Positions 2,750 through 21,660 of a DNA stretch of 22,989 nucleotides are shown in pieces. Positions within the stretch are counted from its first letter, which is position 1, and the number at the start of each line of letters is the position of its first letter. Source of the stretch: a virus. The notes under the pieces were generated by a model, which saw nothing but the letters and a program-made list of their open reading frames with translations, made no database searches and was not told the DNA's origin. The DNA lies in IMG/VR virus record IMGVR_UViG_3300043392_000004, positions 1 to 22,989 of that record; one strand, 5' to 3'. The translations under genes were made by a program, and so were the position numbers.

Positions 2750-4291
2750 ATGGCAGAACAACTACTCACTACCACGATTCAAGCTCCGGGTTTCCAAGGC
2801 TTAAACCTTCAAGATTCGTCTGTGAGTTTGGATAATGGATACGCTACAGTGGCTCAGAACTGTGTCATTGACAAGTTTGGGCGTATCGGGGCACGTAAGG
2901 GCTGGGCACCAGCTCATAGTGCCTTAGCTGCTGCCACAGGTGCCTATATCAAAGCTATCCATGAACTGATTGCCAACGATGGTACCAGTTACATCATAGC
3001 AGCAGGCAACAATAAGATCTTTAAGCTTGTTGGAACTACCCTTACCGAGTTAACTTATGGTGGGGGTGGAGTAGCTCCTACGATCTCCGCTAGTAACTGG
3101 CAGATGGCTCCTTTGAATGGTCGTCTGTATCTGTATCAAGTAGGTCATGATCCTCTGGTGTTCGACCCTGCTGTCAGTACTACTCAATATCGACGTATCT
3201 CAGAAGCTACAGGCTATTTAGGCACCGTACAGAATTCTAACTGTGTAATCAGTGCTTATGGACGTACGTGGTCAGCTAATACTTCAGTAGACAAGAATAC
3301 TATCCAATTCTCTGACTTAAAGGCAGGTCATGTACTGAATACAGGCACTTCCGGTACTCTAGACGTATCTCAAATCTGGCCTAACGGTGCGGACGAGATT
3401 ATCGCTTTAGCAGCCCATAACGGTTATCTGATGATCTTTGGTCGTAGACAGATTCTGATCTATCAAGGTGCTCGTGATCCTTCTACGATGTCCTTGGCAG
3501 ACACTATCAGCGGTATTGGCTGCGTAGCTCGTGACTCTGTAGTGGTTACTGGTGGCGATGTGGTGTTCTTGTCCGATACAGGTGTACGTTCTATCATGCG
3601 TACCATTCAAGAGAAGTCTGCTCCTATGCGAGAGCTTAGCTTGAACGTTAAAGATGATCTGATTGCAGATGTGTTGACAGAACAAGCTGAAGATATTCGT
3701 GCTGTGTACTCAGATAAGGATGCCTTCTATCTGTTGTCTTTACCAACTACAAATACAGTGTATTGTTTCGATATGCGTAATACGCTTCAGAATGGTGCAG
3801 CTAGGACAACTATCTGGAATAATATCACCCCTAGAGCTTTCATGTACACCCGTAATAAGGATTTATTGCTTGGACAAGAAAGTTTTATTGGGAAATACGA
3901 AAATAACCTTGACAACACTGCCTCATATCGGTTAAAATATTACACCAACTACTTTGATTTCGGTTCTCCTACAGCTATTAAGATTCTGAAGAAACTGAAC
4001 TTTACATTTGTAGGTGGTAATGGTGCTGATCTGAGTGTTAAGTACGGTTTTGATTATGGTAATAACTATCTGTCCAGAACCATCTCTTTAGGTAACGTTA
4101 ACATTGCTGAGTACGGTGTTGCAGAGTATAACATCGGAGAATACACAGCAGGTGTTGTTTTCGACAACCAGAAGATCAATGCCTCGGGTTCAGGTAACGT
4201 TTTACAAGTCGGGTTAGAAGCTGAGATTAGTGGCTTTGAACTCTCTCTACAAAAGCTGGATTGCTACGTTAAAGCAGGAAGAATTAAATAA
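2750..4291 (+). CDS. Tail tubular protein B-like nozzle/stabilisation protein
   Basis: A 513-aa beta-rich protein. The N-terminal GFQGLNLQDSSVSLDNGYAT segment followed by AQNCVIDKFGRIGARKGW is the classic opening of phage stabilisation / nozzle proteins, where most of the chain folds as a propeller-like tail-tip ring. It is shorter than T7 gp12 (about 794 aa), a size common in P22-like and marine podoviruses. It lies directly after the adaptor, its usual neighbour. Its stop overlaps the next ATG by one base (TAATG). No enzyme motif is seen. It probably builds the distal tail tube and contacts fibres. Confidence 0.78.
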   Translation: MAEQLLTTTIQAPGFQGLNLQDSSVSLDNGYATVAQNCVIDKFGRIGARKGWAPAHSALAAATGAYIKAIHELIANDGTSYIIAAGNNKIFKLVGTTLTELTYGGGGVAPTISASNWQMAPLNGRLYLYQVGHDPLVFDPAVSTTQYRRISEATGYLGTVQNSNCVISAYGRTWSANTSVDKNTIQFSDLKAGHVLNTGTSGTLDVSQIWPNGADEIIALAAHNGYLMIFGRRQILIYQGARDPSTMSLADTISGIGCVARDSVVVTGGDVVFLSDTGVRSIMRTIQEKSAPMRELSLNVKDDLIADVLTEQAEDIRAVYSDKDAFYLLSLPTTNTVYCFDMRNTLQNGAARTTIWNNITPRAFMYTRNKDLLLGQESFIGKYENNLDNTASYRLKYYTNYFDFGSPTAIKILKKLNFTFVGGNGADLSVKYGFDYGNNYLSRTISLGNVNIAEYGVAEYNIGEYTAGVVFDNQKINASGSGNVLQVGLEAEISGFELSLQKLDCYVKAGRIK

Positions 4292-4830
4292 TGAGTAACT
4301 TGGCTCTTTTATACCCGACTGAAAGTAAGCTATGTCCTCATTGCTCTACAGTAAAACTATTTACTGAATTCAATAATAACAAAGCTACTAAGGACGGTAA
4401 GCAAAGACTTTGCCGTCCTTGTGATAATGAACGGCTTAAGTCTAATCGCAACCGTCGAATAGATCAGTATAAGAAGTATGAACAAGACTATCGGAAAGCG
4501 AGAGCTAACGATCTTGAGTACAGACTTCGGAATTTGTTAAACGCTTCCCGGGCGAGGGCTAGAAATAAAGATAGAGAGCATGAAATAACTCTTCAAGATC
4601 TTTATGACTTGTATCCTATAGACAATAAGTGTCCAGTTTTTGGTTTTGAATTAGAATGGAATAGTGCAGGTTTTAGAGAAACAAGTCCTTCAATAGATAG
4701 GATTGATTCTTCTAAAGGATACACAAAAGACAATATTCAAATTATTTCGTGGAAAGCTAACAGATTGAAAGCTTACGCGACAGTGGAAGATTTAGAAGCT
4801 GTAATAGCTTTCATGAAACAAGGAGATTAA
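4291..4830 (+). CDS. HNH-type homing endonuclease inserted in the tail operon
   Basis: A 179-aa nuclease. It has an N-terminal zinc-finger-like pair (C15-P-H-C18 and C41-R-P-C44), a basic linker with Tyr/Arg repeats, C114-P-V-F, and a terminal D136-R-I-D139...GY-T...N148...N157-R-L-K block. This is the usual end of phage HNH / His-Me finger endonucleases of the DRIDxxxGY type. Its sequence is visibly A/T-richer and less GCT/GGT-biased than its structural neighbours, consistent with a recent mobile insertion. It lies between two virion genes, overlaps the upstream stop by one base and supplies the AGGAGAT ribosome site for the next gene. Activity and target are not known. Confidence 0.82.
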   Translation: MSNLALLYPTESKLCPHCSTVKLFTEFNNNKATKDGKQRLCRPCDNERLKSNRNRRIDQYKKYEQDYRKARANDLEYRLRNLLNASRARARNKDREHEITLQDLYDLYPIDNKCPVFGFELEWNSAGFRETSPSIDRIDSSKGYTKDNIQIISWKANRLKAYATVEDLEAVIAFMKQGD

Positions 4831-11184: not shown

Positions 11185-11409
11185 ATGTCCGAGGATATTA
11201 GTCATAGAGAGATCTACGAACGATTGTGTAAGGTAGAAGCTAAAGTAGACAAAGTAGCTACAGACACGGAAGGTATGGTAGCAGCCTTTAACGCTGCCTC
11301 CGGAGCCTTTACCGTCCTAGAGTGGCTAGCTAAAGTAGCTAAACCTATTATCTTTATTGGTAGTATTATTGCCGGTATCACTGCTCTGTGGCATAATCAC
11401 AAAGCATAA
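11185..11409 (+). CDS. XhlA-like small membrane protein
   Basis: A 74-aa protein with an N-terminal amphipathic/coiled-coil half (IYERLCKVEAKVDKVATDTE) and a single C-terminal membrane span (about residues 48-68, KPIIFIGSIIAGITALW), ending in a short basic tail. This order is typical of haemolysin XhlA-type holin accessories; a spanin-like function is less likely as no lipobox is present. It is the last gene of the left arm; only the terminator separates it from the convergent operon. Family match is by architecture only. Confidence 0.62.
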   Translation: MSEDISHREIYERLCKVEAKVDKVATDTEGMVAAFNAASGAFTVLEWLAKVAKPIIFIGSIIAGITALWHNHKA

Positions 11410-11415
11410 ACAAAT

Positions 11416-11453
11416 AAGGCCCGTTAGAGTTCATCGCTCTAACGGGCCTTTTT
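11416..11453. terminator. Bidirectional intrinsic terminator between convergent arms
   Basis: Perfect 14-bp inverted repeat (11416-11429 with 11437-11450) around a 7-base loop, with a GGCCCG-rich stem and five Ts on the + strand after the stem. The opposite strand gives a T-rich but weaker tail (TTATTTGTTT). It lies seven bases after the stop of the last left-arm gene and just past the stop of clpP, so it can end both transcripts. Confidence 0.93.
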
Positions 11454-11456
11454 CAT

Positions 11457-12083
11457 TTACTCTACAGTAACTTCCTTCACCTTCTTAGGCTTAGGCGGCT
11501 TGTTCAGCCCATTCAGATACTTGTATCGTCGAAGCATACGCTTTTGAGATTCCTCACTGTCGAACCAAAATTCCTTCCCGTTCTTCAGGTCATCCAATTC
11601 CTTGTCAGTCAAGAACCCCTTATAGGCCTGATCCAGTAACTTGTTGATCTGTCGTGTAGCAAAGTCAGTCTGACCCTTGACGTTAGGTACTGTACCAATA
11701 GAACCGTAGTGAGCAGTATGCAGCATCATCTCTGCGCTGTCCGCAATGTAGCATTCCTGCGCCATACAGGCCAACATAGAGGCTGCGCTGTATGCTGCTC
11801 CGATTACGGTCACTCCAACCTGACCACGACATCCTTTCATAGCTTCGATGATCTGCCAGATAGCATCTGTCCGTCCTCCTGAGCTATTCACCAACATATT
11901 CACGGAATCATTCTCACTACAAGTAGCCAAGCAGTGAATAACATCTCGATAGTTACTAGGAGCTAGGATGTCGTCGTCGATAAAAATGATGTGAGCATGG
12001 CTTTGCTGAGTAATCGTACGAATCAAACCCTTCTGGTCAGGCATCATCATCATGAATTCTTCAATGTTCTCATTTGCTTTCAT
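11457..12083 (-). CDS. clpP: ClpP-like serine protease
   Basis: A 208-aa member of the ClpP/crotonase fold. Visible are an oxyanion loop N67-S-S-G-G70, a catalytic-serine block G95-A-A-Y-S-A-A-S102-M, and the histidine in MLH122TAHYG. The third catalytic acid is not certain from the sequence. The length is close to bacterial ClpP, with a basic, Pro-rich end (PPKPKKVKEV). It lies last in the replication arm, away from capsid genes, so it is not obviously a prohead protease. It could pair with host ClpX/ClpA or act alone. Its ATG overlaps the HNH stop by four bases (ATGA), and its GAGGA ribosome site is inside the HNH gene. Confidence 0.83.
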   Translation of the reverse strand: MKANENIEEFMMMMPDQKGLIRTITQQSHAHIIFIDDDILAPSNYRDVIHCLATCSENDSVNMLVNSSGGRTDAIWQIIEAMKGCRGQVGVTVIGAAYSAASMLACMAQECYIADSAEMMLHTAHYGSIGTVPNVKGQTDFATRQINKLLDQAYKGFLTDKELDDLKNGKEFWFDSEESQKRMLRRYKYLNGLNKPPKPKKVKEVTVE

Positions 12084-12106
12084 TCGCCATCCTCATACTT
12101 AGTTTT
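12080..12106 (-). repeat. Second copy of the phoH 3' end, at the HNH C-terminus
   Basis: Nine codons including the stop match 12525-12551 at 22 of 27 positions. All five differences fall at third codon positions and only the last alters the residue (Glu for Asp). It encodes KTKYEDGE and contains the GAGGA ribosome site and overlapping ATGA start for clpP. Confidence 0.88.
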
Positions 12107-12535
12107 CATTTTATTTCCTTTAGAAATGTTATCAAAGGCAGTTAATACTTGCAGATTCCATGGAACATGAAGACCACATACATTGCTTCCTTGTAAAGGC
12201 ACAATATGATCTACATGATATTTGATTTCAAAAACTTCAGAAGCTGCTTGAGCAAGTTCATAAAATTCTTCAATCTTTTTAAAATCTTCAGCAGTTAACC
12301 AAGGCGGAGTAGCAGAAAGTTTAACTGCTCTACGTTTAGAGTTAATAGCATTACACAGGTGCTTGTTTTCTTTCTGCCAAACACTCATGTATTGTTTACG
12401 TTGCTCTTTCTTTTCTCGGGCATACTGTAAACGAGCTTCTCTATTCCTGTAGTAGTATTCTTTCTGCTTTCTCAGCCTTTCTTCTTTATTTTCTCTGTAG
12501 TATTGGCTACACCTTTGCGCATTATCAGTCGCCAT
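12080..12535 (-). CDS. HNH homing endonuclease between phoH and clpP
   Basis: A 151-aa protein. Start is the ATG at 12535 inside the end of phoH, giving an 11-base overlap; a longer frame to 12619 lies wholly within phoH and is unlikely. The N-terminal third has Tyr/Arg/Glu repeats of the YYxxNxE type (e.g. QYYRENKEERLRKQ), as in many mobile HNH enzymes. The nuclease core is H107-V-D109-H110-IVPLQG, then WNLQV (from W126) and a DN...GNK end. It ends KTKYEDGE, almost the same as the end of PhoH (KTKYEDGD), as marked by the paired repeats. The insertion kept clpP coupled to the operon. The cleavage target is unknown. Confidence 0.85.
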   Translation of the reverse strand: MATDNAQRCSQYYRENKEERLRKQKEYYYRNREARLQYAREKKEQRKQYMSVWQKENKHLCNAINSKRRAVKLSATPPWLTAEDFKKIEEFYELAQAASEVFEIKYHVDHIVPLQGSNVCGLHVPWNLQVLTAFDNISKGNKMKTKYEDGE

Positions 12536-12551
12536 CTTCGTATTTAGTCTT
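12525..12551 (-). repeat. First copy: authentic 3' end of phoH
   Basis: Encodes KTKYEDGD and the stop of PhoH. The internal GATGGCG supplies the HNH start codon. Paired with 12080-12106, the two copies flank the HNH body and look like an insertion-site duplication or co-conversion tract. Confidence 0.88.
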
Positions 12552-13271
12552 TGCGATAATGTAATTGCGTACCAACGAACTTCGTACGATGTCTTCAATA
12601 TGAAATTCAATACGTACAAACTCTTTCATCTTGGCAGCAATGTCAAAGAACTTAAGAATACCGCTCTTGTCATCCTTCTTCTTCAAGTCTGTCTGTCGGT
12701 AGTCCCCACAGAAGATGATCTTGGACTTGTCACCAACACGAGTAATGATGGTGTCCAGCTCCTCAAACGTCATATTCTGAGTTTCATCCACGACAATGAT
12801 ACTGTTAGAGAATGTTGTACCTCGAATGAACGAAGTAGACACAAACTCAATATGCCCTTGCTCCACCAGTCGATCCCAAGCATCCTTACGCTTGAACAGG
12901 TCACTACAGATCTGTCGATAAGGCTGGATATACACCTCCATCTTCTCATCTGCATCGCCGGGCAAGAAACCAATGTCACGACTCTGTACACTACTACGAA
13001 TCACAGTCACCTTGTTAAAGGGATTATTACGATCCATCGCTTCCTCCAAGGCCTTATACAGGGCAATGTAGGTCTTACCTGTACCTGCCACACCATGCAA
13101 AGCCATGAAGTAGTTAGAGGCTTGATAGGCCTCGAAGAAGTCCATCTGCTTCTCAGTCTTAGGCTTGATAACAGTCATATCATCTAGCTTCAACTTCAAA
13201 CTATTACTGATCTTCTCCCGAGGAGTCAACTCCTTAGCTGGAATTGCTCGGTTCATCTGTTTACTCGCCAT
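12525..13271 (-). CDS. phoH: PhoH-like P-loop ATPase
   Basis: A 248-aa protein of the PhoH family. Walker A is G60-VAGTGKT, Walker B is IIVVD162-E163-TQNM, and a sensor-like IIFCGDYRQTDL follows. The length matches the short phage PhoH proteins. Family members are helicase/nuclease-associated ATPases induced by phosphate limitation in bacteria and widespread in aquatic phages, but their role in infection is unsettled. The gene overlaps the upstream small gene by 11 bases (ATGGCGAGTAA) and its end is overlapped by the inserted HNH gene. Its last codons recur at the HNH end. Confidence 0.9.
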   Translation of the reverse strand: MASKQMNRAIPAKELTPREKISNSLKLKLDDMTVIKPKTEKQMDFFEAYQASNYFMALHGVAGTGKTYIALYKALEEAMDRNNPFNKVTVIRSSVQSRDIGFLPGDADEKMEVYIQPYRQICSDLFKRKDAWDRLVEQGHIEFVSTSFIRGTTFSNSIIVVDETQNMTFEELDTIITRVGDKSKIIFCGDYRQTDLKKKDDKSGILKFFDIAAKMKEFVRIEFHIEDIVRSSLVRNYIIAKTKYEDGD

Positions 13272-13470
13272 CTTGCTTCTTTCTTAGTTGATATTCATAC
13301 TCACTACGCGCTAACATCGCTTGATAGCTCTCCCCTGTTTCTTTGTGTACCATAGGACCATGAAAGCCGGGCTTATCATTCTTGAGTTCAAACATATCAA
13401 TGAACTTATTTCCAGCTTTCCGGTTCTCTTCGCAGATCTCACTTACTGTACGCATAGGCTTATTCGTCAT
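13261..13470 (-). CDS. 69-aa hypothetical protein before phoH
   Basis: Not recognised. The protein is charged and mostly helical (MTNKPMRTVSEICEENRK start, SEYEYQLRKKQDGE end), with a short PGFHGPMVHKETGE middle and a single Cys. No membrane segment is present. It overlaps both neighbours by exactly 11 bases, so it is translated as part of the glutaredoxin-phoH segment. The DGE end is set by the overlapping start of phoH (GATGGCGAG) and resembles the ends of PhoH and the HNH enzyme only in that respect. Confidence 0.72.
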   Translation of the reverse strand: MTNKPMRTVSEICEENRKAGNKFIDMFELKNDKPGFHGPMVHKETGESYQAMLARSEYEYQLRKKQDGE

Positions 13471-21230: not shown

Positions 21231-21259
21231 ATTGTATCCTACCTTTAACGTCCTGTCAA
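21231..21259 (-). promoter_or_regulatory. Near-consensus sigma70 promoter for the SSB-to-clpP operon
   Basis: On the minus strand, a perfect -35 TTGACA (21254-21259), a 17-base spacer and -10 TACAAT (21231-21236, one mismatch to TATAAT). The expected start is near 21224, within an ATGTACAT palindrome (21222-21229) that could be an operator. The TGA of the -35 is also the stop of the upstream HNH gene. It would serve host RNA polymerase. Confidence 0.87.
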
Positions 21260-21660
21260 GGTTTGTTACAATTATTTTCTTTCCATTGCCGCACCCACTT
21301 ATACGCTGACCATCCATACTCTTTACTCAATTCTGTGGGAGAGCACTGTGTCTCCTTCCACTTCTTAAAAGCTTCGGTATGGATATATGAATATCGTTCC
21401 TTATTTGTTTTGATTGCGTGTTCGTGTCCTGATATACATTCAAGATGTTCGATGTTCTGGCAAGCACGATTCCCGCACAAGTGGTTAATCTCGTAGCCTT
21501 CTGGAATTTCTCCTCTCCGTGCCCTCCAGATAAACCTATGGAACATCTCAAGTGTATCGCCCCAGCGTTTACGAAAATAACCATCTTGATTCAGCTTATG
21601 TGAAAGCGGAATATAACAGCCATCCTCTGTCGTAACAAAAACAAGCGGTTTAGTGTACAT
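21256..21660 (-). CDS. HNH endonuclease inserted after DNA polymerase
   Basis: A 134-aa HNH_3-type nuclease. The core is H41-RFIWRARRG, then GYEIN59-H60-LC62-GNRAC67-QNIEHLE, with the downstream GHEHAIKTN, and a helix-turn-helix-like C-terminus (SPTELSKEYGWSAYKWVRQW) that probably recognises DNA. Such enzymes often sit in or beside phage DNA polymerase genes as selfish elements. The ATG overlaps the polymerase stop by 11 bases (ATGTACACTAA). Its own stop lies in the -35 box of the next promoter. It may also be a neutral or host-excluding homing gene; activity is not shown. Confidence 0.88.
   Translation of the reverse strand: MYTKPLVFVTTEDGCYIPLSHKLNQDGYFRKRWGDTLEMFHRFIWRARRGEIPEGYEINHLCGNRACQNIEHLECISGHEHAIKTNKERYSYIHTEAFKKWKETQCSPTELSKEYGWSAYKWVRQWKENNCNKP

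Follow-up and report, generated by a model that had tools for sequence, protein, structure and literature searches.

A small HNH nuclease gene lies between phoH and clpP in a phage genome fragment, and we consider it probable (about 0.7) that this gene belongs to a free-standing homing element which invades a gene at its 3' end and supplies the ending anew. The window analyzed here is a fragment of 22,989 bases from an uncultured tailed phage (G000), present as a single contig. On its minus strand, phoH, the HNH gene and clpP follow in this order, and each overlaps the next (Table 1). Our reading draws on the architecture of this locus, the native state of the junction in relatives, the native copy of the phoH end behind the nuclease gene, silent divergence with a definite boundary, and a similar architecture at other genes.

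Table 1. Features of the phoH-clpP locus in the window.
Feature	Positions	Strand	Description
phoH	12525..13271	-	248 aa, intact, ends KTKYEDGD; Pfam PhoH 1.1e-48; ORF
Silently rewritten phoH 3' tract	12525..12608	-	codons 221-247 and stop; minority codons, change point
Upstream repeat copy (phoH end)	12525..12551	-	22/27 identical to downstream copy; without GAGGA, without ATGA overlap
HNH nuclease gene	12080..12535	-	151 aa; ATG inside phoH end; last 8 codons are phoH 3' end
HNH family core, residues 4-142	12110..12526	-	extent of tblastn match and homologue alignment; phoH-derived ends excluded
Downstream repeat copy (native phoH 3' end, joined in frame to HNH gene)	12080..12106	-	26/27 identical to L024; at the single junction of L281
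GAGGA, ribosome-site core for clpP	12090..12094	-	6 bases before clpP ATG; same in HNH-free relatives
clpP	11457..12083	-	208 aa; ATGA overlap with HNH stop; Pfam CLP_protease 3.6e-14; ORF

PhoH and the HNH protein share KTKYEDG followed by Asp or Glu at their C-termini, as an initial annotation of this DNA had pointed out, and its coordinates and counts for the underlying repeat were reproduced. The last 27 bases of phoH (AAGACTAAATACGAAGATGGCGACTGA) and their counterpart at the end of the HNH gene (AAAACTAAGTATGAGGATGGCGAATGA) agree at 22 of 27 positions (81%), with all five differences on third codon positions. These differences had been called synonymous, which holds for four of them, but the fifth swaps Asp for Glu. 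Similarity between the copies ends at both edges of the 27 bases. The match exceeds chance: in 393 random comparisons of the phoH end within the locus, none reached the score of the two ends. The KTKYEDGE ending was absent from all other HNH homologues in a sample of 87 loci, and same-group relatives located elsewhere, either after clpP (L022 and L121) or in the lysis region (L036, L060, L012 and L025), do not carry the tail. Both GAGGA and the ATGA overlap with the clpP start lie in the downstream copy, as annotated before.

Two further HNH-type genes are present in the window, one at 4291-4830 on the plus strand, after a 513-aa ORF, and one at 21256-21660 on the minus strand, overlapping the end of polA. 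Nucleotide repeats at the borders of these two genes were sought and none was found. Codon deviation at the polA 3' end was diffuse, the available relatives being too distant for this comparison.

The junction was then compared with that of related phages, in which the window PhoH has 82-97% amino acid identity to 80 phage loci. A direct phoH-clpP junction had been predicted for HNH-free phages, and 52 of 70 distinct relative junctions were without insertion. At these junctions phoH ends with KTKYEDGE or a closely similar sequence, and the clpP start lies within or beside the phoH stop, with the exact ATGA overlap in eight of the 52. Two outcomes named beforehand as contrary to the insertion were not seen, namely the tail on HNH homologues at unrelated loci and the loss of the phoH ending in HNH-free relatives. 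The closest genome, which is also the closest for polA, is L281 (the full contig of L024), and it has no HNH gene at the junction. The window aligns to L281 in two pieces, which overlap by 28 bases on the single phoH end of L281. These comparisons support the view that the HNH gene was inserted where phoH and clpP had adjoined directly.

Between the downstream copy and the phoH end of L024, 26 of 27 bases agree, and in this copy GAGGA stands six bases before the clpP ATG; GAGGA is retained in 67 of 71 relatives. The upstream copy has GAAGA and GACTGA, both unusual among relatives. Judged from these alignments, the downstream copy is the native junction and the upstream end is the foreign-looking part. 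The earlier proposal that the ribosome site of clpP was preserved after the insertion was borne out, the site being located in the downstream copy.

The foreign-looking part of phoH was larger than the repeat. Minority codons made up 19 of the 26 that could be scored between codon 221 and the stop, vs. 56 of 210 before codon 221, and the PhoH protein is nearly unchanged across the rewritten codons. The 3' end of the window phoH is the most deviant 25-codon stretch among 60 close phages. Codon usage changes at codon 221 (permutation p 0.0005), a sharp edge that lies about 54 bases upstream of the repeat. The initial annotation had assumed two identical copies followed by synonymous drift. This was not upheld, as the downstream copy resembles the native end and the rewriting sets in well before the repeat, at a sharp edge. 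The silent divergence, bounded at codon 221 and reaching beyond the repeat, speaks for an ending that came in, or was favored by selection, as another version of the DNA. The synonymous distance between the copies had also been offered as a date for the insertion, but the upstream end looks brought in or rewritten, so the distance cannot date it. Likewise, entry of the HNH gene had been placed at the phoH stop, but it was most likely within the phoH 3' end. No donor of the rewritten tract was found, the best identity to any relative being 0.78, and a degenerate-pattern search of 2.9 million viral contigs for the rewritten end gave no exact match.

The phoH-clpP junction is an insertion hot spot. 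Other occupants of this junction in relatives were an HNH_3/AP2 nuclease, an 84-residue ORF (PTVRF...ETLNTLYVP) and a 58-residue ORF (MWIVQL...TEMTYYG); the two ORFs occurred alone or combined in L002, L010, L015, L042, L047, L019, L020 and L073. In L056 (4715-4965), a short ORF (MGKDKLWLVEF...MIEDGV) lies between perfect 18-base copies of TGAGGATGGTGTATAATG. This duplication supplies a ribosome site and a start to both the inserted ORF and clpP, and L056 is thus a fresh junction duplication without a nuclease. In L057 (4756-4928), the start of an HNH gene (MNIEELKEYF...NKRPSNRV) is joined to the end of the 84-residue ORF, and this short ORF is apparently a deletion remnant; the phoH 3' end of L057 is still deviant.

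Seven phages with an HNH gene or its remnant at the junction had phoH ends more deviant than the others (codons 220-245, one-sided p 0.0008, uncorrected for kinship). In carriers of the HNH_3/AP2-type gene or its remnants (L060, L057, L016 and L004), the break in phoH was near codon 165-173, vs. codon 221 in the window. Deviant phoH ends were present in L001, L061, L063 and L064 despite the lack of an insertion. Three of these, L001, L061 and L064, are strongly deviant at phoH codons 220-247 and could be former hosts of a homing gene since lost. In L026 the insertion is present and the phoH end is not deviant.

The HNH protein of the window matched PHROG 26577 (3e-19) and PHROG 1035 (endonuclease VII, 1.1e-17), and no Pfam family reached the cut-off for it. 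Homology to its family spans about residues 4 to 143 and ends at about 141-143, just before KTKYEDGE; the family C-terminus is NLxKxN plus a few residues. Its three N-terminal and eight C-terminal residues derive from phoH DNA read in different frames. The protein contains an HNH-type motif, HVDHI...GLHVPWNLQ, in which V108, D109, H110 and N127 are invariant in the alignments, and this motif rules out the intein-like WHO type as well as the LAGLIDADG and GIY-YIG types of nuclease. A group I intron or other catalogued RNA element was also rejected, as an Rfam scan of 11400-13300 at E 0.5 gave no match and phoH has its own stop. A structure model of the protein, of low overall confidence (pTM 0.39), was helix-rich with a disordered tail, residues 145-151 being below pLDDT 50, and a PDB profile search revealed no convincing relative. 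The HNH gene was found in one contig, with no second contig located. A single-sequence search of IMG/VR gave no close relatives, and homologues were found only by alignment-based search.

We scanned 98 loci of the family at the protein level for the end of the upstream gene directly after the nuclease. Leftover 3' ends were observed in seven of the 98, including the window; the other six were L171, L219, L178, L172, L185 and L226. About 5,900 random pairings scored at most 64, leaving aside one genuine terminase-terminase pair at 150. The window repeat is so short that a scan of proteins does not single it out, and the window was counted on nucleotide evidence. Scores near background excluded L228 (61) and L202 (57) from the count. 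The TYEEVE end of L120, which is probably native to its own protein family, was excluded as well. Among the annotated phage records, none of 17 loci had a leftover end. A scan for duplicated N-termini of downstream genes recovered only the same leftover ends.

The pattern of the window recurred in L171, in which an HNH homologue (46% identity to the window protein in the alignment) follows a major capsid gene. The capsid gene ends DMRVTGADLGGFINSVIST and the nuclease ORF ends DMKVTGADLGGFINSVIST, with 18 of 19 residues kept and 13 silent changes. The upstream copy was the most codon-deviant of 79 relatives over the last 20 codons, and the downstream copy agreed weakly better with the relatives (0.41 vs. 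0.25 upstream, p 0.06). An identical sequence is present in a second metagenome contig, L283. At two terminase genes the leftover ends were longer: 52 residues after terminase GpA in L219, where the differing codons were 15 silent to 5, and 44 residues after the terminase of L178, where they were 17 silent to 7. The leftover end belongs to a tail gene in L172 and L185 and to a portal gene in L226, and in these three the two ends also diverge much in protein, so that a distant donor may have supplied the replaced end. In L226 (1682-2411), the HNH gene starts within the portal gene in another frame, so that nuclease DNA encodes the last residues of the portal protein. Behind the HNH gene the native portal end remains, and the nuclease frame stops early, after GLHVP.

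Explanations other than homing into the phoH 3' end were weighed against these results. In one of them the gene inserted at the phoH stop and duplicated the junction, and the upstream copy then drifted silently. This fits the repeat and the preserved clpP site, and the perfect 18-base duplication of L056 demonstrates such an event around an inserted ORF at the same junction. Drift, however, predicts no sharp edge outside the repeat, and the edge seen in phoH about 54 bases further upstream makes this course of events unlikely. The locus might instead be a scar of recombination, in which a donor phoH-HNH segment was illegitimately joined to the recipient phoH end, with no continuing rescue role for the ending. 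Such a scar accounts for a foreign upstream and a native downstream copy, and phage nuclease genes have been reported at the borders of exchanged regions (PMC10448857). Homologous nucleases with like structures at capsid, terminase, portal and tail genes suggest a repeated process, however, and we regard a mere scar as quite improbable.

Convergence is a far weaker candidate. It would hold that genes preceding clpP must end with GAGGA...ATGA and that the similarity is simply a shared ribosome site, in line with the conservation of GAGGA among the relatives and with L004, whose HNH_3 gene ends RDGE beside clpP. The 27-base match nevertheless exceeds a ribosome site, and its KTKY part together with L171 refutes convergence as the sole cause. 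Moreover, other insertions at the junction have different ends and sites, e.g. AAGGAGAAACATG, and leftover ends follow HNH genes at other loci too. A metagenome assembly chimera could be suspected, given that the window is one contig of an uncultured virus and its HNH gene was found in no other. It is scarcely credible, however, with intact reading frames, clean overlaps and the L171 structure identical in two separate metagenome contigs.

We therefore return to homing with restoration of the ending as the preferred reading. The nuclease would cut an HNH-free phoH near its 3' end. One homology arm for repair would be upstream phoH, the other the final 27 bases of phoH together with clpP, and the rewritten phoH end and the HNH gene would be copied in between. 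This would leave PhoH intact but encoded by DNA that has ceased to match the target and is presumably uncut, with a nuclease gene added. The native phoH 3' end would remain as the tail of the nuclease, keeping the ribosome site of clpP. In general form, a target would be cut in or near its native 3' end, and the nuclease gene would be copied in as one block with a replacement 3' end, upstream sequence and the native end serving as homology arms. Cleavage, the cleavage site, resistance of the rewritten end and homing are what we infer from the arrangement of the DNA.

More tentatively, and with somewhat less than even confidence, we suggest a widespread "home-and-rescue" class in phages. In this class, important genes (capsid, terminase, portal, tail and phoH) would be attacked at their 3' ends by small HNH nucleases, which would carry silently rewritten ends resistant to cleavage and spread new endings among phages.

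If this is true, free-standing phage nucleases need no gene border and can enter important genes with a replacement ending, in parallel to synthetic gene drives with a recoded rescue. The target of each nuclease would then be predicted as the 3' end of its upstream gene. It would also explain orphan gene ends beside phage HNH genes, which otherwise resemble duplications or frameshifts, and would provide a mechanism for patchy silent divergence at the ends of phage genes.

Free-standing HNH homing endonucleases of phages likewise occur sporadically at gene borders near structural and replication genes, and the two papers that report this (PMC10448857, PMC12724721), where searched, mention no case in which a host 3' end was replaced and its native copy left behind. 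F-CphI, with the Endo VII motif (DHHRN), is likewise a free-standing phage homing endonuclease (PMC6083498), and the window protein matches the endonuclease VII group PHROG 1035. It has HVDHI...HVPWNLQ, however, and lacks the DHHRN hallmarks, DHDH with flanking CX2-4C and CX2C, as described in that paper. A search of open-licence papers returned no phage case of a replaced 3' end, though an earlier phage report may exist.

The closest parallels were found in fungi. WHO homing elements of Torulaspora and Lachancea yeasts replace the 3' end of FBA1, and a duplicated 3' fragment serves as the second homology arm (PMC7282813). As in the phages, an endonuclease gene stands beside an important host gene, the host 3' end is replaced and a 3' fragment is duplicated downstream. 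Resistance to WHO arises from allelic sequence differences; cleavage was shown for WHO, while for the phages we infer it. WHO elements encode an intein-like zinc-finger endonuclease in yeast nuclear genomes and have fragments of about 400 bp, whereas the phages have a small HNH protein and leftover fragments of 27 to about 156 bases, in some cases as an extension of the nuclease itself.

Mobile ORFs of fungal mitochondria, known from atp6, atp9, cox2 and nad3 of Glomus and atp6 of Allomyces (PMC3630166), are similarly arranged, with a foreign C-terminal end in phase, an endonuclease ORF and then the native C-terminal end, and their copies diverge far more in DNA than in protein. They differ in having LAGLIDADG or GIY-YIG nucleases, in their mitochondrial location and in the lack of translational coupling to the next gene. 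The window shares with WHO elements and mobile ORFs a complete upstream gene, an end changed in DNA and not in protein, a native 3' fragment after the nuclease, and element-free alleles at the locus; in L171, too, the upstream end differs in DNA with the protein kept. We concluded that the phage elements work like WHO elements and mobile ORFs with an unrelated type of nuclease, as analogous systems and not as homologous members of either.
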